Below are positions 1 through 41,190 of a DNA stretch of 64,000 bases, one piece after another. A program made the translations under genes and the position numbers. Each line of letters starts with the position of its first letter. Position 1 is the stretch's first letter. Below the pieces are notes generated by a model. The model did not search any database, was not told the DNA's origin, and saw only the letters and a list, made by a program, of their open reading frames with translations. Origin of the DNA: Prorocentrum cordatum (Eukaryota > Sar > Dinophyceae > Prorocentrales > Prorocentraceae); assembly GCA_963575745.1 (NCBI GenBank), contig CAUYUJ010011492.1, forward strand, positions 142,501 to 206,500, in the 5' to 3' direction.

Positions 1-740
1 GACTCGATTGCGTTTAGGACTGTTTGTGAGGATGTCTCAGGCGGGGCGTTGGTTTCATCACCCCTAAGGGGAGCCGTCAGGGGTGTTTTCACCAGCCCAT
101 TCGCGGCCAGTTTGTGGGGATGTCGTTGGCGGTGGGGCTGTTTTGGTGGGCGGCCTTGTCTGCGTTTAGAGCAGTCTGTGAGGATGTCTCAGGCGGGGCG
201 CTGGTTCCAGCACCCCTAAGGGAGCCGCCATGGGTGTTTTCCTTGGCCCGTTCGCGGCCAGTTTGTGGGTATGTCTCAGGCGGTTTGCTCGTTGTCATGC
301 ACATCGTTGGTTTTCGGATCAGATTTTGAAGATGTCTCAGGCGGGGCGCTGATTTCAGCACCCGTAAGGGGAGCCGCCAGGGGTGCACACACGGGCCCGT
401 TCGCGGTCACTGTGTGGGGATGTCTTAGGCGGTTTGCTTGTTTTCATGCCCGACATCGTTGGCTTTCCGATCAGATTTTGAGGATGTCTCAGGCGGGGCG
501 CTGGTGTCAGCACCCTTGTTAAAATGAACCGCCAGGGGGTAGTACACGGGCCCGTTCGCGCCCAGTTTGTGAGATGTCTTCGGCGGATTGTTCGTTTTCA
601 TGCCCAACATCCTTGGCTTTCAGGGCAGATTCTGAGGATGTCTCAGGCAGGGCGCTGGTTTCAGCACCCCGCACCCCTGACGGGACCCGCCAGGGGTGTT
701 TTCACGGGCCCGTTCGCGGCCAGTTTGAGGAGGGGGAATG
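1..740. repeat. Tandem array, about 152-bp unit, five copies
   Basis: The core GAGGATGTCTCAGGCG recurs at about 28, 180, 328, 480 and 634, spaced 148-154 bp. Each unit also carries a GGGGAGCCGCCAGGGGTG-like block and a CCCGTTCGCGGCCAGTTTGT block. The array enters from the left edge. The short reading frames in it shift between units, so I call no gene. The core is shared with the 42-bp arrays at 4.9-9.6 kb. Confidence 0.85.
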
Positions 741-17503: not shown

Positions 17504-17525
17504 TCCGTAGCCATTTTGGCCCAAG
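17504..17525 (+). other. Relict dinoflagellate spliced-leader sequence
   Basis: TCCGTAGCCATTTTGGC followed by CCAAG matches the 22-nt dinoflagellate spliced leader at 21 of 22 positions, with T to C at position 18. In dinoflagellates this leader is added to mRNA by trans-splicing. A genomic copy just upstream of a gene is the known mark of a reverse-transcribed, reinserted mRNA. It lies 90 bp before the PPR start codon on the same strand. A weaker second TTCGCTCAAG at 17530-17539 could be a remnant of another leader. Confidence 0.85.
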
Positions 17526-17615: not shown

Positions 17616-20388
17616 ATGGCACCTGCGCCCGCGGAGAAAGAGCGCTGCCTTAAGGAGATGCAGGAGGAGCTGGTGCACTGCTCGCGCCGGGGCGAGGTCG
17701 CCCGCGCGGAGGAGCTGCTGGGGCGCATCGCGGCCACCCCGGGCTACCAGGGCTGCGTGGAGGACCTCGGGAGGGTGGAAATGGGGGGGTGGCCCAAATT
17801 GGGGGTGAAGAGGAGGGCCCTAAAGGAGCCGTACTCTTCACCCCCAACAGTTGTATGTTGCTGTGTCGCCCCACTTTGGTGCATCTTGTGCTACGCCGCG
17901 CGCGCGTGACACACTGGTGTCGCCGAGCCGTTGGCCACGTTAACTCGAACGGGTCAGGTTAGCTTTGGCGCAGAATGGGCAAGGCCTGGGTCAGGTTAGG
18001 GTAGGGATTGGCTACGTTAGGGGCGGGGCAACCACCCGCCCGAGAGGACTTCAACGCGGTCATCCACACCTGCACGCAGGCTGGGAGCATGGCGCGGGCG
18101 GAGGAGCACCTCGCTGGCATGGAGAGCCGCGGGCCCGCGCCGAACATACGCACGTACAACATGGTCATGCGATCGTTTTCTTCTTCAGTGTTTTGCCGAT
18201 CGGCGCGGGCCCTCGCCCCCCCCCCTCCCCCGGTCGCGAGGCGCGGGCCCCGGGGATCCCATCGCACCCGCACAGGGTGCGCAGGAGGAGGTTGCGAGAC
18301 AGCGCAGGGCATGCAGGGGGTGGCCTGGGCGACGACTGGATACGCGCGTGACCGCATGTTTTCCCAGCGGTTGGCCCTCGTATGGCTAGGTACGCCAGAA
18401 CCCCGCATGTGCATCCAGCGCGTGGCTTCCGGATGTTCCACATGTGAGTGCCGCCATGTGTGGAGTAGATCTTGGCTGTGTTGGGGATTTGTTTCGAGCA
18501 GGTGGGGTCTCCCCCGTAGGGCGCCCTGCTGCAAGCAGTCGCAGTGAGCAGAGTTCGGAGCCAGACCCCCCCTTCCCCCCCCTTCCGCCCAATGTCGAAA
18601 CGCCGAAAAAGAAAACGTTGACCATCAACGCCTACGCCAACGTGGGGGACGTCGCCCGCACGGAGAAGTTCCTCGAGCGCATGAGGCTCAGAGGAGGAAA
18701 AAATAGCCATACCGCTACCATTCCTCCGTTTTCCCCTTGGGTCTCGTGGGTTGCCCTCGTCGCCACCACTGGGTTCGCCTCGGCATTCTGGTCAGAACGC
18801 GCCCCGGGAGAGGTCCGGGGAGTAGCGGTATCGGTACCTTGTGGTTTCCCTAGAGGCTGCTCGGCGTCCAGCCTAATTACGTGACCTACAGCACCCTCTG
18901 CAAGGTCTACGCCCGCCTCGGCGCGGTCGAGGAGATCGAGCAGGTGATGAAGATCGTCGAGCAGTACGTCGGGCCCGTCAACGAGTACTTCTTCGCCTCC
19001 CTCATCTCCGCGTGCGGCCAGACGACCCCGCCGCAGCCGGAGCGTGCGGAGGGGGCCTTGGATGACCTGGTCCGCCGCGGCCTGAAGGCGCAGAGCGTGA
19101 AGCGGGCGCTGTCGCGGGTCGTTGGCGAGGAGAGGACGGCCCACTTGTTGAAGATGTTGGGGCTCAAGATGGTGGGGCAGCCCCAGGTGCGCTTAGGTCG
19201 GGCATGTCTCCCTACAGGGGGATTTTGGACGACAAATGTAAAAGTGGTACAAAAAAAGCTTTGGAACATAATTCAGAAATATCCAAAACATCATTCCCTG
19301 ACTATTGTTTTGGCTATTTTTGAATATTCCTCCTGTAGAGGGACACGCCCGACTGGAAGGTGCGCCCGGGCGCCACTGCCACGCAGCTGCCGCTGCCCCC
19401 GGGCCTCGTCGCGGAGGCCTCTGGCGCGCGCCGCCGCGTGGTGCCTCCCGCCGCCGGCAAGAGGGCGCCGAGCGGCAAGGGCACAGCGGACGCGCACGAC
19501 GGCAGCGGCAGCAGCACCGGCCTGGGGACGCCGCGCCAGGGGCCCTCCGTGAGCTCCGCGGCGAGCGACGGGTCTGGCAGCGAGGGGCAGGGCCAGGGGC
19601 CGTGGGCCGCAGAACCGAGGATAGGGGAACGAGGGGAACGAAGAATGGCATAAACACAAAAACATGGCGGCGCCTCCGGCGCCGCCCCTGATGCGCTCCG
19701 CGCGCCAGGGAGAGGGCTCCAGCGCCGATCCGAGAAATCCGCGCGGGCCTCCGAGTTCTCATGTTTGTGCCAGTGCCATGCTTCGCTTCCCTATAGAGGA
19801 GGCCCCCGGGCTGCGGCAGGGGCGCCCACGCGGCCCGGGGCGCTGCCAGGGGCGCGGCCCGGGGCGCGGCCACGGGCGTGGCCTGGGGCGCGGCCACGGG
19901 CGCGGCCAGGCCGCAGAGCTTCGGGAAGGCCCACGCGCCCGTGGCGGCCCCGCCCGGCGGGCGCGGCGCCCCAGCGGCCTTGGCCCAGCAGGCGGCCCTG
20001 CGCGGCTGGCAGGCGCAGCCGCCGAGGGCTCAGCAGCAGCAGTAGCCGAGCTGGCAGCAGCAGCAGCCGGCGCGCCCGAGCTTCCAGGCTCAAGTCGGGC
20101 ATGCCCCTCTACAGGAGGAATATTCAAACATGGCAAGACAATATTATGGGGGCGATGCGATGCTTTTGGTTTCATATATAGATCTATAAATAGACTTGGG
20201 GAACAAACATGTTTGACTATTTGTTGTTTTTTATTCTTCCTACATCCGCCTGTAGGAGGACACACCCGACCGCATTCCAGGCCCCGCCAGGCCTCGCGGC
20301 CTTCCAGTCCGCGACCCCGCGGCCGCCGAGCAACGGCGGCAGCCACTACGTCCCCGGCAGCGCACTGCGGCAGGCCGCCTCGCTGTAG
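17616..20388 (+). CDS. Pentatricopeptide-repeat protein gene, seven exons
   Basis: PPR proteins bind RNA, usually in chloroplasts or mitochondria. Proposed exons are 17616-17762, 18047-18163, 18612-18685, 18856-19186, 19360-19619, 19799-20087 and 20281-20388. All joins keep frame, giving 441 codons plus stop. PPR units of about 35 residues: 16-50 (RRGEVARAEELLGRI), 51-85 (FNAVIHTCTQAGSMARAEEH), about 86-123 (NAYANVGDVARTEKFLERM), about 124-158 (YSTLCKVYARLGAVEEIEQV), then a weaker unit and an ALSRVVGEERTAHLLKMLGL segment. The C-terminus is Pro/Gly/Gln/Ala-rich low complexity ending HYVPGSALRQAASL. The start is the first ATG in frame after the leader relic; I see no certain organelle-targeting peptide. 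An in-frame TAG at 20043-20045 (codon 392, inside a Gln run) would truncate the product after the PPR units. It may be a mutation, an assembly error, or a sign that the exon 5-6 frame is wrong. Confidence 0.8.
17763..18046 (+). mobile_element. PPR intron 1, GA-AG, element-derived
   Basis: Exon 1 ends GTGGAG|GACCTC and exon 2 begins CGAGAG|GACTTC, so GAGGAC.TC is duplicated at both ends. Removal restores GCVED-FNAVI exactly in PPR register. The ends are inverted repeats CTCGGGAGGGTGG / CCACCCGCCCGAG. A second internal inverted repeat is TTGGGGGTGAAGAG / CTCTTCACCCCCAA. No other copy was seen in this window. Confidence 0.75.
18164..18611 (+). mobile_element. PPR intron 2, family B element copy 2
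   Basis: Family B ends (GATCGTTTTCTTC.. / ..GAAAAAGAAAACG) sit inside a PPR codon run. A GT donor after ATG and an AG acceptor at 18611 give TYNM|KTLTINAYA. Exact loss of the element would give TYNMVINAYA, which fits the 35-residue PPR period better. The splice pair is therefore uncertain. About 240 bp of extra sequence lie inside this copy (18240-18465). Confidence 0.65.
18686..18855 (+). mobile_element. PPR intron 3, GC-AG, family C element copy 1
   Basis: ATGAG|GCTCAG at the left and TAGAG|GCTGCT at the right. GAGGCT is duplicated and supplies both the AG and the GC. Internal CATACCGCTACC and GTAGCGGTATCGG are inverted. Related copies are at about 26488-26638 and 30363-30512. Splicing gives MRLLGVQPNYVTY, exactly one PPR period. 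Confidence 0.8.
19187..19359 (+). mobile_element. PPR intron 4, GT-AG, family A element
   Basis: Left CCCAG|GTGCGC and right GGAAG|GTGCGC. The 8-bp duplication AGGTGCGC supplies both splice sites. Between them lie TTAGGTCGGGCATGTC and GAGGGACACGCCCGAC, the family A terminal inverted repeats. Splicing rejoins GQPQ-VRPGATATQ. Confidence 0.9.
19620..19798 (+). mobile_element. PPR intron 5, GA-AG, family J foldback copy 1
   Basis: Starts GATAGGGGAACGA after CCGAG and ends CTTCCCTATAGAG before GAGGCC. Almost the whole 179 bp is an imperfect inverted repeat (ATGGCATAAACAC / GTTTGTGCCAGTGCCAT). This boundary choice keeps the frame of the last exon. An AG two bases earlier would break it. Confidence 0.7.
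20088..20280 (+). mobile_element. PPR intron 6, GC-AG, family A element
   Basis: TTCCAGGC is duplicated (20082-20089 and 20275-20282) and gives TTCCAG|GC at the donor and TTCCAG|GC at the acceptor. The element ends AAGTCGGGCATGCCCCTCTA and TAGGAGGACACACCCGACCG. Splicing rejoins ARPSFQ-APPGLAAFQ. Confidence 0.9.
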
Positions 20389-24799: not shown

Positions 24800-24975
24800 A
24801 ACGGCATAAACATTAGTTGGTGGCGTTCCACGCGGATTTTTTGGATCGGCGGTTGGCTCCCCTGGCGGTGCTTCCGGCGCCGCCCACGGCGTGCTGCGCG
24901 CGCCAGGGAGGCGGGTCCAGCGCAGATCCAGGAAATCCACGCGGAGCGCTACAAAGTTTTGTTCATGGCAGTTTT
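24800..24975. mobile_element. Family J element, copy 3
   Basis: GGCATAAACATTAG...CGCGGATTTTTTGGATCGGC at the left is answered by GATCCAGGAAATCCACGCGG and TTTTGTTCATGGCAG at the right. It aligns with copy 5 in unit 2. Confidence 0.65.
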
Positions 24976-25149
24976 TTCGTCTTCCTGAATGGTGGGGCGA
25001 TAAATGTGGTCAGATGAGGAAAAGGTAACCGCATCCCCCGGATAATCATTATATCCCCAGCATACTTGGTCGGGGAAGGGGGACGGCAAGGCCGAGTTTG
25101 ATTATCGCGGTGCGAGGTTGCGAATCGAAGTGTTGTTTGTTTCTTTTGT

Positions 25150-25790
25150 GTTGAGTAGCAAAGGTTCCGAAGGATTCTTGTTGATTGCCATTAGGAGTCC
25201 TATGGATTGCCCCAAGACATCCGTAAGGAATCCTATGGCTTCCCAAAGGAGCCCGACGATATCCTAAGCAATCCAATAGATTTATTTGGGAATCCGATGG
25301 GTGGCCTATAGGTATTCTAAGGACGGCGGTGGATGTCTTCATCGATCTCCCAATAAATCCCATATATTAATTAAGGCGCAGGAAGGATTGCCTAGATAAT
25401 CTTCTTGATCCTCCTTGTTGCGCTCCCGCCCGAATTTGTACTCCCAAGTAAGAAACCGAAGGTCCCGAATCGAAATTGTTGTTGGAATGTTTACCCTGGG
25501 GTTCCTCGTTCACCTCCGCCTCTCCAATGGATTGCTTACGGAATATTATAGACTTCCTGTGGCAGCCCATGCAGTTCCGAAGGACACCTAAATATGTTCT
25601 AAGGAGCCCGATAGATGTCCAATGGGACCCCATGGATTCCCCAAGGGATCCTGTGGATGTCCCAAACAATCTAATGAAATCCTAAAGCATCCTAAGGATC
25701 CCCGAAGGAACCCGATGGATCCCCGAAAGGAATTCCTATGGATTTGCTCTGGACTCTTATGAACATCCAGGGTCATTTTGATCACCATCA
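25150..25790. repeat. Degenerate 25-30-bp repeats
   Basis: Irregular motifs such as CCCAAGGGATCCTGTGGATG and CCGAAGGA.CCCGATGGAT. Duplicated at 29620-30220 in unit 2. No coding. Confidence 0.6.
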
Positions 25791-25821
25791 TCGTCATCAT
25801 CTTCATCATTCTGCTGAGATT

Positions 25822-26429
25822 GCGAAGGCCTTACGGCCGGTGCCGCCGACCCTGAATGGCGACGACGACGACGACGACGATGAGCGCTCTTGAGGGCCTC
25901 GTGGGGGTAGTTTGTGGGCCTCTTGGGAAGCTCTTAGGGGCCGCTTGGAAGCCTCGTGGGGGCCTCTTGGGGCTTCCTGGGGGTCTCTTGGAGGGGGCCT
26001 GGGACGTCTTGGAGGCTTCTTGGACGGTCTTGGGGCTATCTTGGGCGTTTTCGGCCGATCTTTGGGCGACTCGGGGCCCCCTTGGGCCGTCTCGGGGGCC
26101 ATGTTGGGCATTCGGACCTCATTTGGAGTGTTTTCGAGGTTTCGAGGCCGCCCGAGGAAAAACGAATCTGCCCCCCACCCCCCCCAGGACCCCCCCCGGG
26201 ACCCCCCCCTCCACCCCCCCTGGGACCCCCCCCGGGACCCCCCCCCCTGGGGAAGGGATCGAAGGGAAGGGGCTTCCCTTCGACTCGATTACGACACTGC
26301 TCGATTTTTCTCTCGCTCACGAGCTTGAGAAGGAAGCTGCAGGGAAAGGGGACGACGGAGGCGACGACCGACGGAGACGACGACTCGAACAGCCAAGCCC
26401 CTCGCACACGCCGACAGGGTCGGCGGATT
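25822..26429. mobile_element. Family K insertion, 608 bp
   Basis: Absent at the same position in unit 2. Flanked by GATT on both sides (25818-25821 and 26426-26429). Near the left end is GCCGCCGACCCTG and near the right end CGCCGACAGGGTCGGCGG, itself a hairpin. The interior holds CCTCTTGGGG-type repeats, a CCCCCC-rich segment and GAAGGGAAGGGGCTTCCCTT. A related right end is at 33575-33600. Confidence 0.7.
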
Positions 26430-26487
26430 TCCGTGAAAACGTGTACAATCTTCTCTGGGCCCCGAACTTCATTACCCCCTGAAGATT

Positions 26488-26638
26488 ACCCATACCGGTG
26501 CCCTCCGCCCGTTGTCCCTTTTTTGGGCCTCTTGGGAGGCCCTAGCCACCACCGCTGGTGTCGCCTCGAAATCTTGGTCAGGACGCACCCATGGAAGGTC
26601 CAGGGAGTAGCGGTATCGGTACCTTTTGGTTCCCCCAT
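26488..26638. mobile_element. Family C element, copy 2
   Basis: CATACCGGTGCCCTCCG at the left and GTAGCGGTATCGGTACCTT at the right, as in PPR intron 3. Copy 3 is the duplicate at 30363-30512. Confidence 0.65.
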
Positions 26639-26883
26639 GGGGGGCAGCGAGGGTTGCGGAAAAGAAACCTTATAGGGCACCCAAAGGGACCCTTGGCCAG
26701 GAGGGAGCTTCTAGGGCCCGAGAAGGGCACGTTTTTTCCCCGCCCCCATTCATCTCCATCCCAATTCTTCGCGCTCAAGACGCGTGCCGACCCCAAGGGC
26801 GCCGGAAGCGGCGCAGCCAGGAGGCAGAGGAGTACGAGCTTCTGTCTGCAGTGGGAACATCCTGGGAGGGTTGGGGCGGTTTT

Positions 26884-27367
26884 CGGGGCGCCTTGGCTTC
26901 CCCGCAGGCTTGAATTTTGCACAAGGGGGTCATCTCGCAGCCTCTGCCGTAAGCGTTGCAGGTCAGGCTGGGGCACCAACGAGTGGCACTCCGCGCCGGA
27001 AGCTGTCCGCGCCGCGTGCCTCGGGTGCTTCCTTGTCCACGCGCGCGAGCGTGCTTTTGCGGACAGCGCCCACACAGAACGCGGAGGTATAGTAGCGGCA
27101 ATCCGGTGGTGTTTTTTTCAAGTGTCGGGGCGCCTTGGCTTCCCCGCAGGCTTGAATTTGGCACAAGGGGGTCATCTCGCAGCCTCTGCCGTAAGCGTTG
27201 CAGGTCAGGCTGGGGCACCAACGAGTGGCACTCCGCGCCGGAAGCTGTCCGCGCCGCGTGCCTCGGGTGCTTCCTTGTCCACGCGCGCGAGCGTGCTTTT
27301 GCGGACAGCGCCCGCACAGAACGCGGAGGTATAGTAGCGGCAATCCGGTGGTGTTGTTTTCAAGTGT
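26884..27367. repeat. 242-bp tandem duplication
   Basis: Two nearly identical 242-bp copies starting TCGGGGCGCCTTGGCTTCCC meet at about 27125. Unit 2 has only one copy (30760-31000), so this arose after the segmental duplication or was lost from unit 2. Confidence 0.85.
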
Positions 27368-27429
27368 CTGCGCGTTGCAGTGCGCACAATTAGCTCAAAA
27401 CAGGGTCGATTGCGGCAGCGAGCAGGGAT

Positions 27430-27665
27430 CAAGCAGTGGCGGAGCGTCCTGGCTTGCCTATAGCCCCACCACGGATGTTCTAAGAACCTTTTTTTTGTGG
27501 TTTGCACGAAATGTTTCTGAAACATTTCTGGTCGAGGTTGCCTTGTTTTCATACATCGGGTTTATGTCCTGAGAGCCTTGTTTGTGCTATTCGGATCTGT
27601 TTGGGCTCTAAGAAGATGTCGTGGTAGGTCTACAGGAATGCCGGGACGGTCGGCCCCTGCTCAAG
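27430..27665. mobile_element. Family I element, copy 2
   Basis: TCAAGCAGTGGCGGAGCGTC at the left is mirrored by GGACGGTCGGCCCCTGCTCA at the right. AGGGA flanks both ends. Confidence 0.7.
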
Positions 27666-27860
27666 AGGGAGGGGCCCCCCACCCATGGGATGCACACAAG
27701 AGCGAGCCCGTGACGGGTAGCCCGCTCGGCCGTCTCTCTTTCTGACACGGGTGCCGCCCCCGGCAGGATCACGCCCGGCCCGCGACAGAGCGCCCTCGCG
27801 CGTGCCATGACCACTGCGTCCGTGCGGAGTGGATTCATGAGCCGCGCATGTGTCGAAGGA

Positions 27861-28055
27861 GACAAAAACGCCATAGAACATAAGCCTTTGGCGCTCCGCG
27901 CGGATTTCTTGGATCTGCGCTGGGCCCCCCCTAGCGGCGCCTCGGGCGCCGCTCCGGGCGCCAGAGGCGCGACAGGGAGGGGGGTCCAGCGCAGACATAA
28001 GAAATCCGCGCGGAGCGTCAAAATTTTATGTTTGTGTCGTTTTTTGTTCGTCGAA
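27861..28055. mobile_element. Family J element, copy 4
   Basis: Foldback arms around GCGCTCCGCGCGGATTTCTT and AAGAAATCCGCGCGGAGCG. Duplicate of copy 6. Confidence 0.7.
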
Positions 28056-29239
28056 TGTGGGAGAGCTTATGTTATTCGGCGGCGAGCCGTGGGGGGAGTG
28101 AGAAGCGGCGGGCCTTCGTAGAAAGCTCGGAAGTCCCCCGGCCTTGTGGGATGTCTTCCAAGCCTTCCCGGAAGACACAGAAAACCTATCAGAAGGCGCG
28201 AGGGCTTCTGAGAAGTCTCGCCGCCTTCTGAGCAGGCCTTCGCCTTGTCACTTCCCCCCCTCGCTCGCCGCCGAGGAGTGGATTCATGCTTCGTGCACGC
28301 GAGGGAGCTTCTGTTATGCTCGTGCGCAGCCGGCACGTGCCTAAGTTTCAAGAGTTTGGCGCCTGCTCTCGTGCCCCCCGCAGGAGCGGCACGGCGGCAT
28401 GCTGTTGACCCGCATACGTGCCTGCGCAGGTCATCTCGGTGGGTGCCCTTGTCTGTCGATTCCTCATCTCCTGCCCATCCCTCTGATCGCGACGCCGTCT
28501 TCACGAGAGGATCGCTCGAAAAATCTGTGAGGGCCTGGCAAGTGTGTTCGCCCGTCCTGAGTCCCTGCCACGCGGAGGCTTCGGCGGTTCTCCCTGCGCA
28601 TGCCGACCCCAGGAGCGCCAGAGGTGTTGGGCGCGAGTGAAGGTCGAAGAAAAAGTCGGTGGTAGAGAGAACCCCCACCAGGCCAGCCACAACTGGGGGA
28701 GCTGGTCCTTACCCCCCTGGGGGACCCATCGAATTCGACACCACTCAAGAGATCGTCGATGCGATGGGTTCCCCCAGGGGGGTAAGGACCACAGCTCCCC
28801 CAGATGTGGCTGGTCGGCCCACCCTGACACGGTCATCAGTGCATTGTCCGTTCTCGGTTCTCGGGAGTGCGCCGCGACCGTCGGCCATTTTCCAAGCTCG
28901 CGCCCGCCAGGTATGAGGGTCGGAGATGCAAGGGGTGGCGGGCCCTCAAGATACACGTGTTGGAAACGCAGGCCCGCGTGCGCGCCTTCGGCGCGAGGCC
29001 CAAAAATCGGGCAATGAAGCTCAGCTGTCTTATTTCCTGGCGCGTTTCAGCCGTAATGGCATGCCTCGGAGGCGAGTGCGCGTGCCTCGCGTGTATATGA
29101 TCCCGCGCATGGAGGCCCAACATCGAACCATTTTACTCTTCGGGAGTCATGGCGGCGCCAGGTTTGGGCCCGAGGTCGTTTTCACCAAACCACGTTTTGC
29201 TAAAGGTGGTTCTGTCCATCCCCGAACAAACACATGCAG

Positions 29240-29425
29240 AAAAAACTGCATAAACATTAGCTGTTGGCGTTCCACGCGGATTTCTTGGATCGGCGCTTGG
29301 CTCCCCTGGCGGTGCCTCCGGCGCCGCCCGAGGCGTGCTGCGCGCGACAGGGAGGCGGGTCCGGCGCAGATCCAGGAAATCCGCGCGGAGCGCTACAAGG
29401 TTTTGTTCATGGCAGTTTTTTTCGT
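29240..29425. mobile_element. Family J element, copy 5
   Basis: GCATAAACATTAGCTGTTGG to GGTTTTGTTCATGGCAG, foldback arms as in copy 3. Confidence 0.65.
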
Positions 29426-30362
29426 CTTTCAGAATGGTGGGGTGATAAATGGGGTCAGATGAGGAAAAGGTAACCGCATCCCCCGGATAACCATTTATAT
29501 CCCCAGCACATTTGGTCGGGGAAGGGGGTGGCAAGGCCAAGCTCGATAATCGCGGAGCGAGGTTGCGAACCGAAGTGACGCTTGTTTTTCTTGTGTTGAG
29601 TAGCAGAGATTCCGAAGGATTCCCACTGATTGCCTTAGGAATCTTATGGATGCCCCAAGACATCCGAAGGATTTCCCAAGGATAGCATGGATCCCCTAAG
29701 GAACCCGATGGTTTTCCAAAGGAACCCGACGATACCCTAAGCAATCCAATGGATTTACTAGGGATTCCGATAGATTTCTTATAGGTATTCTAAGGACGGC
29801 GGTGGATGTCTTCACCGATCTCCCAAGAAATCCCATATATGTATTAAGGAGCAGGAAGGATTTCCTAAGGAATCTTCTTGATCCTCCTTTTTTGCGCTCC
29901 CGCCCGAATTTTTACTCCCAAATAAGAAGCCGAAGGTCCCGAATCGAGACTGCTTACCCTGGGGGTCCTCGTTTACTTCCGTCTCCTCCAATGGACCGCC
30001 TACGGAATATTATAGACTTCCTATGGCAGCCCATGCAGTTCCGAAGGACACCTAAATTTGTTTTAAGGAGCCCGATAGATGTCCAATGGGACCCCATGGA
30101 TTTCCCAAGGGATCCTGTGGATGTCCCAAACAATCCAATGAAATCCTAAAGCATCCTAAGGATCCCCGAAGGAACCCGATGGATCCCCGAAAGGAATTCC
30201 TATGGATTTGCTCTGGACTCTTATGAACATCCAGGGTCATTTTGATCACCATCATCGTCATCATCTTCATCATTCTGCTGAGATTTCCGTGAAAACGTGT
30301 ACAATCTTCTCTGGGCCCCGAACTTCATTACCCCCCGAAGAATTCATATCAGGAGCACATGT

Positions 30363-30512
30363 TTACCGATACCGGTGCCCTCCGCCCGATGTCCCTTTTT
30401 TGGGCCTCTTGGGAGGCCCTAGCCACCACCGCTGGTGTCGCCTCGAAATCTTGGTCAGGACGCACCCATGGAAGGTCCAGGGAGTAGCGGTATCGGTACC
30501 TTTTGGTTCCCC
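30363..30512. mobile_element. Family C element, copy 3
   Basis: Duplicate of copy 2: GATACCGGTGCCCTCCGCCC to AGCGGTATCGGTACCTTT. Confidence 0.65.
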
Positions 30513-31066
30513 CATGGGGGGCAGCGAGGGTTGCGGAAAAGAAACCCTATAGGGCACCCAAAGGGACCCTTGGCCAGGAGGGAGCTTTTAGGGCCCGAGA
30601 AGGGCACGTTTTTTCCCCGCCCCCATTCATCTCCATCCCAATTCTTCGCGCTCAAGATGCGTGCCGACCCCAAGGGCGCCGGAAGCGGCGCAGCCAGGAG
30701 GCAGAGGAGTACGAGCTTTTGTCTGCAGTGGGAACATCCTGGGAGGGTTGGGGCGGTTTTCGGGGCGCCTTGGCTTCCCCGCAGGCTTGAATTTGGCACA
30801 AGGGGGTCATCTCGCAGCCTCTGCCGTAAGCGTTGCAGGTCAGGCTGGGGCACCAACGAGTGGCACTCCGCGCCGGAAGCTGTCCGCGCCGCGTGCCTCG
30901 GGTGCTTCCGTGTCCACGCGCGCGAGCGTGCTTTTGCGGACAGCGCCCACACAGAACGCGGAGGTATAGTAGCGGCAATCCGGTGGTGTTGTTTTCAAGT
31001 GTCTGCGCGTTGCAGTGCGCACGTTTAGCTCAAAACAGGGCCGATTGCGGCAGCGGGCAGGGATCA

Positions 31067-31300
31067 AGCAGTGGCGGAGCGTCCTGGCTTGCCTATAGCC
31101 CCACCACGGATGTTCTAAGAACCTTTTTTTGTGGTTTGCACGAAATGTTTCTGAAACATTTCTGGTCGAGGTTGCCTTGCTTTCATACATCGGATTTATG
31201 TCCTGAGAGCCTTGTTTGTGCTATTCGGATCTGTTTGGGCTCTAAGAAGATGTCGTGGTAGGTCTACAGGAATGCCGGGACGGTCGGCCCCTGCTCAAGA
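31067..31300. mobile_element. Family I element, copy 3
   Basis: Duplicate of copy 2 with the same inverted ends. Confidence 0.7.
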
Positions 31301-31495
31301 GGGAGGGGCCCCCCACCCATGGGATGCACACAAGAGCGAGCCCGTGACGGGTAGCCCGCTCGGCCGTCTCTCTTTCTGGCACGGGTGCCGCCCCCAGCAG
31401 GATCACGCCCGGCCCGCGACAGAGCGCCCTCGCGCGTGCCATGACCACTGCGTCCGTGCGGAGTGGATTCATGCGCCGCGCATGTGTCGAAGGAG

Positions 31496-31690
31496 ACAAA
31501 AACGCCATAGAACATAAGCCTTTGGCGCTCCGCGCGGATTTCTTGGATCTGCGCTGGGCCCCCCCTAGCGGCGCTTCGGGCGCCGCCCCGGGCGCCAGAG
31601 GCGCGCCAGGGAGGGGGGGTCCAGCGCAGACCTAAGAAATCCGCGCGGAGCGTCAACAGTTTATGTTTGTGTCGTTTTTTGTTCGTCGAA
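31496..31690. mobile_element. Family J element, copy 6
   Basis: Duplicate of copy 4. Confidence 0.7.
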
Positions 31691-32193
31691 TGTGGGAGAG
31701 CTTCTGTTATTCGGCGGCGAGCCGTGGGGGGAGTGAGAAGGGGCGGGCCTTCGTAGAAAGCTCGGAAGTCCCCTGGCCTTGTGGGATGTCTTCCAAGCCT
31801 TCCCGGAAGGCACAGAAAACCTATCAGAAGGCGCGAGGGCTTCTGAGAAGTCTCGCCGCCTTCTGAGCAGGCCTTCGCCTTGTCACTTCCCCCCCTCGCT
31901 CGCCGCCGAGGAGTGGATTCATGCTTCGTGCACGCGAGGGAGCTTCTGTTATGCTCGTGCGCAGCCGGCACGTGCCTAGTTTCAAGAGTTTGGCGCCTGC
32001 TCTCGTGCCCCCCGCAGGAGCGGCACGGCGGCATGCTGTTGACCCGCATACGTGCCTGCGCAGGTCATCTCGGAGGGTGCCCTTGTCTGTCGATTCCTCA
32101 TCTTCCCATCCTTCTGATCGCGACGCCGTCTTCACGAGAGGCTCGCTCGAAAAATCTGTGCGGGCCTGGCAAGTGTGTTCGCCCGCCCTGAGT

Positions 32194-39850: not shown

Positions 39851-41190
39851 CTAATGTTTGTTTCGGGCCTCCGGAGGCCGGAGAATCGAGATATTAAGGC
39901 TTATAAATCTCTCTGGAACGCGCTTCGGCGTTCACCCGCTGGAAGTAAGAGGGGCGAGGAGGAAGAGACGGAGGTGGAGGCGGAGGAGGAGGAGGAGGAA
40001 GAAGGGTAAAGAGAGGATAATTTATGGAATCTGCTATGGGTGCCTAGCCCCAGGGAGTTATTCCCTTAGTCTGGTGGGCTGTGTTTCCCATTCGATTGTG
40101 CTCTGTGAAGCTCATTATGACAACGCATTGCTCCCAACGCATGCTCGTCATCACCATCGTCATCAGCAGAATCTTGAAACACATACTCATCATCATCATC
40201 GTCATCAGCAGCATCTTAAAACACATGCTCGTCGTTACCATCGTCATGGGCAGCATCTTGAGACACATATTCGTCATCATCATCATCATCGTCACCATCA
40301 TCATCTGGAAACACATACTCGTCATCACCATCATCGTCATCATCAGCATCTTGAAACACATGGTCGTCATCACCATCGTCATCAGCAACATCTTGAAACA
40401 CATGCTGGTCAGCACCATCGTCATCAGCAGCATATTGAAACACATGCTCGTCAACACCATCGTCATCAACAGCATCTTGAAACACATGCTCGTCATCACC
40501 ATCGTCATCAGCAGAGCATTGAAACACATGCTCGTCATCACCATCACCAGCAACATGTTGAAACACATGCTCGTCATCATCATCATCATCGTCAGCAGCA
40601 TATTGAAACACATGTTCGTCATCATTATCATCATCGTCATCAGCAGCATCTTGAAACACATCATCGTCATCATTACCATCGACATCAGCAGCATGTTGAA
40701 ACACATGCTTGTCATCATCATCGTCATCATCAGCATCTTGAAACACATGCTCGTCATCACCATCGTCATCAGCAGCATCTTGAAACAAATGCTCGTCATC
40801 ACCATCGTCATCAGCATCATCTTGAAACACATGCTCGTCATCACCATCGTCATCAGCAGCATTTTGAAACAAATGCTCGTCATCACCATCGTCATCAGCA
40901 GCATCTTGAAACACATGCTCGTCATCACCATCGTCATCAGCAGCATCTTGAAACACATGCTCGTCATCACCATCGTCATCAGCAACATCTTGAAACAAAT
41001 GCTTGTCATCATCATCGTCATCATCAGCAACCTGAAACACATACTCGTCATCACCATCGTCATCGGCAACATCTTGGAACACGTACTTGTCATCACCATC
41101 GTCACCATCAGCATATTGAAACACATACTTGTCACCATCATCGTCTTCGTGATACCACCGTCGTTATCAGCAGCATCTTGAAACACGCGC
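39840..41190. repeat. Leader plus 42-bp array, long copy
   Basis: A 270-bp leader (GTTTCGGGCCTCCGGAGGCC, GGAACGCGCTTCGGCG, GGAAGAGACGGAGGTGGAGG) is followed from about 40140 by about 25 units of 42 bp (CATCTTGAAACACATGCTCG then TCATCACCATCGTCATCAGC). At least four frames stay open across the array. Confidence 0.9.

Follow-up and report, generated by a model that had tools for sequence, protein, structure and literature searches.

A dinoflagellate pentatricopeptide-repeat retrocopy probably refilled with predicted introns by mobile elements of five families

Roy et al. (2023) reportedly described introners in dinoflagellates, including Polarella glacialis. Introners, coding-sequence insertions with usable splice signals at their target duplication, are a known kind of element, already in print for Prorocentrum cordatum (PMC10666404), for dinoflagellates and for eukaryotes at large (PMC9860276). 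In the excerpts of these papers on which our comparisons draw, those of dinoflagellates are transposon-like, intron-making repeats with many families per genome (PMC11453091). Those of P. cordatum, found by pattern (8-20 nt inverted and 3-5 nt direct repeats near intron ends), have inverted repeats near both ends of the intron, GC, GT or GA donors and AGG acceptors (Dougan et al. 2023, PMC10666404); across the introns of this species, donors are GT in 24.7%, GC in 51.4% and GA in 23.8%, and the acceptor is AGG in 79.7% (PMC10666404). A 64-kb stretch of P. cordatum DNA (contig CAUYUJ010011492.1, positions 142,501 to 206,500; 58.3% GC; hereafter the window) holds a gene whose predicted introns resemble these. 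The product predicted for it is a pentatricopeptide-repeat (PPR) protein (E 6e-13 for each of Pfam PPR_2 and PPR_3), and six inserts fall between positions 17763 and 20280. We consider it probable that this gene is a retrocopy, intron-free at the start, that was refilled by miniature inverted-repeat transposable elements (MITEs) of five families, now standing as predicted introns.

All six inserts carry inverted repeats at or near their ends and are flanked by perfect direct repeats of 5, 3, 5, 8, 5 and 8 bp, in order along the gene (Table 1). They belong to families K, B, C, A, J and A, respectively. With lengths of 165-454 bp, inverted repeats, target duplications and many copies, they have the properties of MITEs, their non-coding nature being judged by size only. 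An initial annotation had placed six introns in this span and ascribed all of them to mobile elements of at least four or five unrelated families, naming B, C, A, J and A for introns 2-6. The span proved exact, running from the first base of predicted intron 1 to the last base of predicted intron 6, and the mobile origin is borne out for every insert by inverted repeats, perfect direct repeats and relatives elsewhere, which for introns 2-6 include relatives within the window. The families number five, with three repeat lengths. Intron 1, said to have inverted repeats and a duplication of its own, indeed has both.

Table 1. Predicted exons, inserts, spliced-leader relict and paralogue pieces (window positions unless stated otherwise)
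Feature	Position	Strand	Remarks
Spliced-leader relict	17504..17525	+	20/21 bases of CCGTAGCCATTTTGGCTCAAG from 17505, after a T; ATG 90 bp downstream
Exon 1	17616..17762	+	ATG at 17616, PPR; frame, joins, Pfam PPR
Insert 1 (family K)	17766..18044	+	13-bp inverted repeats CTCGGGAGGGTGG/CCACCCGCCCGAG; 5-bp direct repeat AGGAC; predicted intron 17763-18046 (GA-AG)
Exon 2	18047..18163	+	Frame and joins, homologue alignment
Insert 2 (family B)	18169..18622	+	Inverted repeats around CGTTTTCTTCTTC/GAAAAAGAAAACG; 3-bp direct repeat CAT; predicted intron 18164-18611 (GT-AG), three extra codons left
Exon 3	18612..18685	+	Frame and joins, homologue alignment
Insert 3 (family C)	18688..18852	+	TCAGAGGAGGAAAA..GGTTTCCCTA; 5-bp direct repeat GAGGC; predicted intron 18686-18855 (GC-AG)
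Exon 4	18856..19186	+	Matches spread over four separate places in the C4158 paralogue
Insert 4 (family A)	19193..19357	+	TTAGGTCGGGCATG..CACGCCCGACTGGA; 8-bp direct repeat AGGTGCGC; predicted intron 19187-19359 (GT-AG)
Exon 5	19360..19619	+	Frame and joins
Insert 5 (family J)	19622..19795	+	TAGGGGAACGA..CGCTTCCCTATA; 5-bp direct repeat GAGGA; predicted intron 19620-19798 (GA-AG)
Exon 6	19799..20087	+	Frame and joins; in-frame TAG at 20043-20045
Insert 6 (family A, second copy)	20090..20274	+	TCAAGTCGGGCATG..CACACCCGACCGCA; 8-bp direct repeat TTCCAGGC; predicted intron 20088-20280 (GC-AG)
Exon 7	20281..20388	+	Ends at second in-frame TAG 20386-20388; coding only if TAG 20043 is non-terminating
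Paralogue pieces on C4158	coding 203-294, 326-418, 442-523, 522-566, 551-661		At 17.95, 91.9, 95.8, 103.6, 138.7 kb

Deletion of each insert together with one copy of its repeat leaves a single frame up to the TAG at 20386-20388, its sole break being the TAG at 20043-20045. The frame is kept at all six removals, for which the chance expectation is (1/3)^6 = 0.0014, and outside the inserts the PPR part is free of stop codons. Since all six predicted introns have lengths that three does not divide, retention of any one would shift the frame. Seven related proteins were found, six of which (P0001-P0006), 47-50% identical, are predictions from 1.2-1.7-kb contigs (RNA or DNA). The comparison with these homologues covered sites 1-3, inserts 4-6 lying in a poorly conserved tail. 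The six proteins align without gaps across the joins of inserts 1 and 3 (VEDFNAV and RMRLLGVQPN). Exact excision of insert 2 would give TYNMVINAYA, equal in length to the TYNSVINACA of the homologues, and the GT-AG reading of this insert adds three residues (NMKTLTINAY).

Upstream of the gene lies a relict of the dinoflagellate spliced leader (DinoSL, sequence taken from PMC6050394), unique in the 64 kb, both strands included, at up to five substitutions. Shortly after this relict stands a second, shorter GCTCAAG, perhaps of older date. A paralogue on C4158 is divided into five exon pieces over ~121 kb, each 90-96% identical to the window gene; 255 of 275 bases agree in trimmed stretches of three pieces. 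The window gene runs on without a break at coding positions 204, ~291, 417-441, 522 and 561, at each of which the paralogue is interrupted, and coding stretches 295-325 and 419-441 were not found on C4158. Given the spliced-leader relict and these breaks, the window gene is, as read from its sequence, a processed copy, and it shows both marks of dinoflagellate retrogenes, a DinoSL relict upstream and a close intron-bearing paralogue. The paralogue comparison reaches the sites of inserts 2, 3 and 4. Paralogue exon L090 shows an empty site for insert 2, reading ACATGGTAATCAACGCC without interruption. Across three exons, 11 differences between the two genes are silent and 8 change the protein, which by count alone leans towards constraint. 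A third PPR paralogue, on C13259 (L095-L097), comprises three pieces of 83-90% identity, some of whose breaks do not coincide in coding position with those of C4158; judging from the two sets of breaks, intron positions look labile. Two further claims of the initial annotation can be placed here. The term retrogene, used there without stated evidence, gains support from the relict and the paralogue breaks. The restoration of coding sequence, claimed for introns 1, 3, 4 and 6, extends to all six removals, although the TAG at 20043-20045 precedes insert 6.

The predicted introns start with GT, GC or GA, twice each, and all six end in AG, with AG|G at five of the acceptors. On the sense strand, AGG occurs in five of the six direct repeats of the gene, as against 9 of 86 strand readings from 43 sampled family A and C repeats (Fisher P = 0.0002). 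This background, read by eye, takes in 27 of 29 A and 16 of 29 C copies, or 43 of the 58 other copies in the samples; the remaining 15 showed no visible repeat or were left aside. With AGG present in all but one of the direct repeats of the gene, duplication of the target would by itself be enough to create both splice sites. As in introners, the coding insertions have usable splice signals at the duplication, in five cases exactly at AG|G and in insert 2 with three extra codons. From the frame, the splice signals and the homologues together, we infer that the inserts would be spliced out. An alternative is that the gene is a dead retrocopy, gathering MITEs like any other DNA, with splice-like edges that go unused. 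We regard this as unlikely in view of the six in-frame removals, the excess of sense-strand AGG over background, the stop-free PPR part and the lean of the paralogue differences towards constraint.

The searches for families A, C, J and K covered the whole assembly, 4,128,499,153 bases in 21,875 contigs. All five families have copies elsewhere in this 4.1-Gb genome; low-complexity or chance repeats were rejected as an explanation on that ground. Families occurring nowhere else in the genome had been named beforehand as an outcome that would speak against a mobile origin, and what we found was copies of every family, those of family B in the window and its flanks, from which its copies were drawn. 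With the gene masked, the window contains 3 B, 3 C, 11 A and 10 J copies (E 1e-5), and 217 kb of flanks hold 17-21 A-like and 20-21 J-like copies, depending on the merging rule. Copies in the window recur at similar spacing in ~24860-28070 and 29300-31700 (24863/29307, 26487/30400, 27934/31568), pointing to a duplicated segment. In the window and in a flank sample of 82 of 87 loci (five dropped as window copies or overlapping duplicates), and with the searched copies masked, A and J occur about once per 5-13 kb (queries from inserts 4 and 5) and B and C about once per 15-54 kb; these densities are rough, the flanks having been fetched around element matches and the counts varying with the merging rule.

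For family A, all 40 scored places (own copy included, of 3,357 first-look candidates) matched, as did all 40 for family C (own included, of 2,290 candidates). Family A ends in TTARGTCGGGC..GCCCGAC plus four bases, and its 8-bp duplications match at 7-8 positions in 22 of 30 sampled copies, own included; the 5-bp duplications of family C match at 4-5 positions in 19 of 30, one base of slack being allowed in both samples. The family A duplication has the consensus nnCTAnnn, with TA at positions 4-5 (nnnTAnnn) in 18 of 27 readable sampled repeats, a pattern described for the Buster group of hAT transposons, which make 8-bp duplications with TA in the middle (PMC3517528). Family B gave nine rows, own included, of which seven keep the AG near the right end and three have 3-bp repeats clear by eye. 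Family J matches at 40 scored places, own included, of 1,180 candidates, and 5-bp duplications were seen in two of seven other copies found by a pattern that missed its own copy. Of 304 first-look candidates for the left end of family K, 40 were scored, and this end recurs in 39 places besides insert 1; in each, the best row starts at query position 1-8, position 4 being the first base of the inverted repeat, and 6 of the 40 places match on both strands, overlapping or adjoining, as palindromes do. Among eight fetched K copies, 5-bp duplications were seen by eye in three (L100, L101, L104) and not in the other five.

In a crude test of 30 loci each, joining the flanks gave longest open frames that did not exceed those of control sites within the same loci (median 237 versus 235 codons for C, 229 versus 237 for A). 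As these flanks are no more open than controls, families A and C look like general MITEs, some copies of which turned into introns, rather than visibly gene-specialised elements. One family A copy (L067, duplication GAGTAGGT) has joined flanks open across the whole 1.2 kb tested (399 codons) and is a candidate for a further element intron. The unremarkable flanks of A and C and the great abundance of A and J are what favour a dead retrocopy, along with the in-frame TAG at 20043.

That TAG is one of several observations that weigh against a refilled retrocopy. It interrupts the frame in a glutamine-rich stretch of exon 6, upstream of insert 6. This may put insert 6 past the end of the reading frame, or it may be a sign of decay in the copy. 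Insert 2 lacks AG at its duplicated site, which makes exact GT-AG removal impossible, and the sole GT-AG reading found by inspection retains 9 extra bases. The edges of insert 1 are 1-2 bases off those of its family (TCGGGC..GCCCGA in the family, the perfect repeat here lying outside CTCGGG..CCCGAG), and most of its interior is a 178-bp piece of another repeat (17851-18028). Insert 5 carries two extra bases (TA) ahead of its right repeat copy. Neither family A copy in the gene has TA at positions 4-5 of its duplication. In three families, few of the other copies checked have a clear duplication (B 2/8, J 2/7, K 3/8).

Some further observations touch these sites. The TAG at 20043-20045 could be a stop, decay, an assembly error or a site of RNA editing, which is reported in P. 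cordatum (PMC10666404). The tail of exon 7, GSHYVPGSAL, resembles by eye CGYVPGAHFL near the end of P0006, hinting at a former coding role. Inside insert 1 lies a match to the 3' portion of a repeat seen elsewhere (L003, L005-L008, L041-L057), where it has a ~42-bp minisatellite upstream and a G run at its end, followed by TGTA in many copies.

A further point against newly gained introns is that C4158 also breaks at coding positions 329 and 660, where inserts 3 and 4 stand; taken alone, this would suggest inherited introns. Such inheritance would follow if partly spliced RNA had been copied back with inserts 3 and 4, and perhaps others, in place, in line with a review that takes dinoflagellate retrogene introns as retained (PMC6050394). 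We nevertheless find parental introns very improbable. The paralogue letters near the edges at 329 and 660 (..TTCCAGTGAG|GCTTC and CAG|GCCCATCG) are unrelated to families C and A, inserts 3 and 4 are bounded by perfect direct repeats, and the paralogue lacks insert 2. Moreover, coding positions 203-661 contain ten AGG sites, five of them used by the paralogue, and two insertions would both fall on used sites with P = 0.22, so that inheritance is not needed for the shared positions; at 329 the paralogue acceptor could instead be CAG|TGAG, 4 nt upstream. The same coincidence could arise if elements had inserted into, or replaced, older introns at 329 and 660, leaving only inserts 1, 2, 5 and 6 as new introns. 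Inserts 3 and 4 show no remnant of an earlier intron between repeats and elements, and we give this account the least credence of all.

For a refilled retrocopy, we propose the following order of events. A spliced and trans-spliced PPR mRNA would have been reverse-transcribed and inserted, giving an intron-free copy behind a spliced-leader relict. Short non-autonomous DNA transposons, the MITEs of five families, would then have entered the coding sequence. The length of a target duplication reflects the kind of transposase that made it. Repeats of 3, 5 and 8 bp therefore probably imply at least three kinds of transposase. Where a duplication contained AG|G, the insert would end in AG and start with GT, GC or GA and could be removed exactly by the spliceosome, allowing the copy to survive, as fits five of the six inserts. 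The family B insert, with its CAT repeat, would instead be spliced from a GT shortly before it to an AG close to its right end, adding three codons. Many insertions may occur, those with AG|G duplicated on both sides being tolerated.

We suggest only tentatively, at somewhat short of an even chance, that retroposition more broadly resets dinoflagellate genes to zero introns and that MITEs of several transposase classes rebuild the set at AG|G, sometimes at parental intron sites. If so, intron positions common to paralogues would be convergent, and retrogene introns would be gained anew, not retained. As a rule, intron gain is read from comparisons between species. Since a retrocopy starts without introns, each intron within it would be a polarised gain, and this gene offers six candidate gains from five families beside an intron-rich paralogue, with one empty site visible. 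Spliced-leader-tagged retrogenes could thus serve as clocks for intron gain, and the locus provides a specific example of target duplication giving rise to AG|G 'proto-splice' sites.

Elsewhere in the window, CATGCTCGTC occurs ten times at ~40149-40965, mostly at ~42-bp multiples, and is likely a tandem array.

Compared with known systems, the locus combines features described separately. Dinoflagellate retrogenes with DinoSL relicts likewise have a relict leader upstream and an intron-rich paralogue (PMC6050394); in the excerpted review their introns are taken as retained, a reading that this locus calls into question, as its introns look newly inserted. The 8-bp duplications of family A, with TA in the middle, are shared with hAT/Buster MITEs such as Mar, whose terminal repeats (CAGRGGTAGGC) differ from TTARGTCGGGC (PMC3517528), making hAT/Buster a candidate superfamily for family A. 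Amoebophrya introner elements (Farhat et al. 2021, PMC7789003) also have inverted repeats at intron ends and short direct repeats over exon borders; their borders are mostly non-canonical and few can be assigned to MITE families, whereas those predicted here are GT/GC/GA-AG. In the DNA-transposon introners of Gozashti et al. 2022 (PMC9860276), splice sites come from the duplication and some cases add codons, as in insert 2; families there (at least four introns) group similar introns from genes whose proteins show no similarity, and ours were defined by genomic copies. The excerpted material of Dougan et al. 2023 (PMC10666404) contains no sequence families, retrogene link or 8-bp duplications, unlike the present locus. 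Judged by titles, and with the subscription literature mostly outside the search, no published case of a retrogene refilled by several element families was found. Relative to the dinoflagellate introners at large (PMC11453091), our families are known from genomic copies, and five of them meet in one gene that would have started with zero introns. It is this start, together with three direct-repeat lengths and hence probably three transposase types within a single gene, that sets the locus apart.

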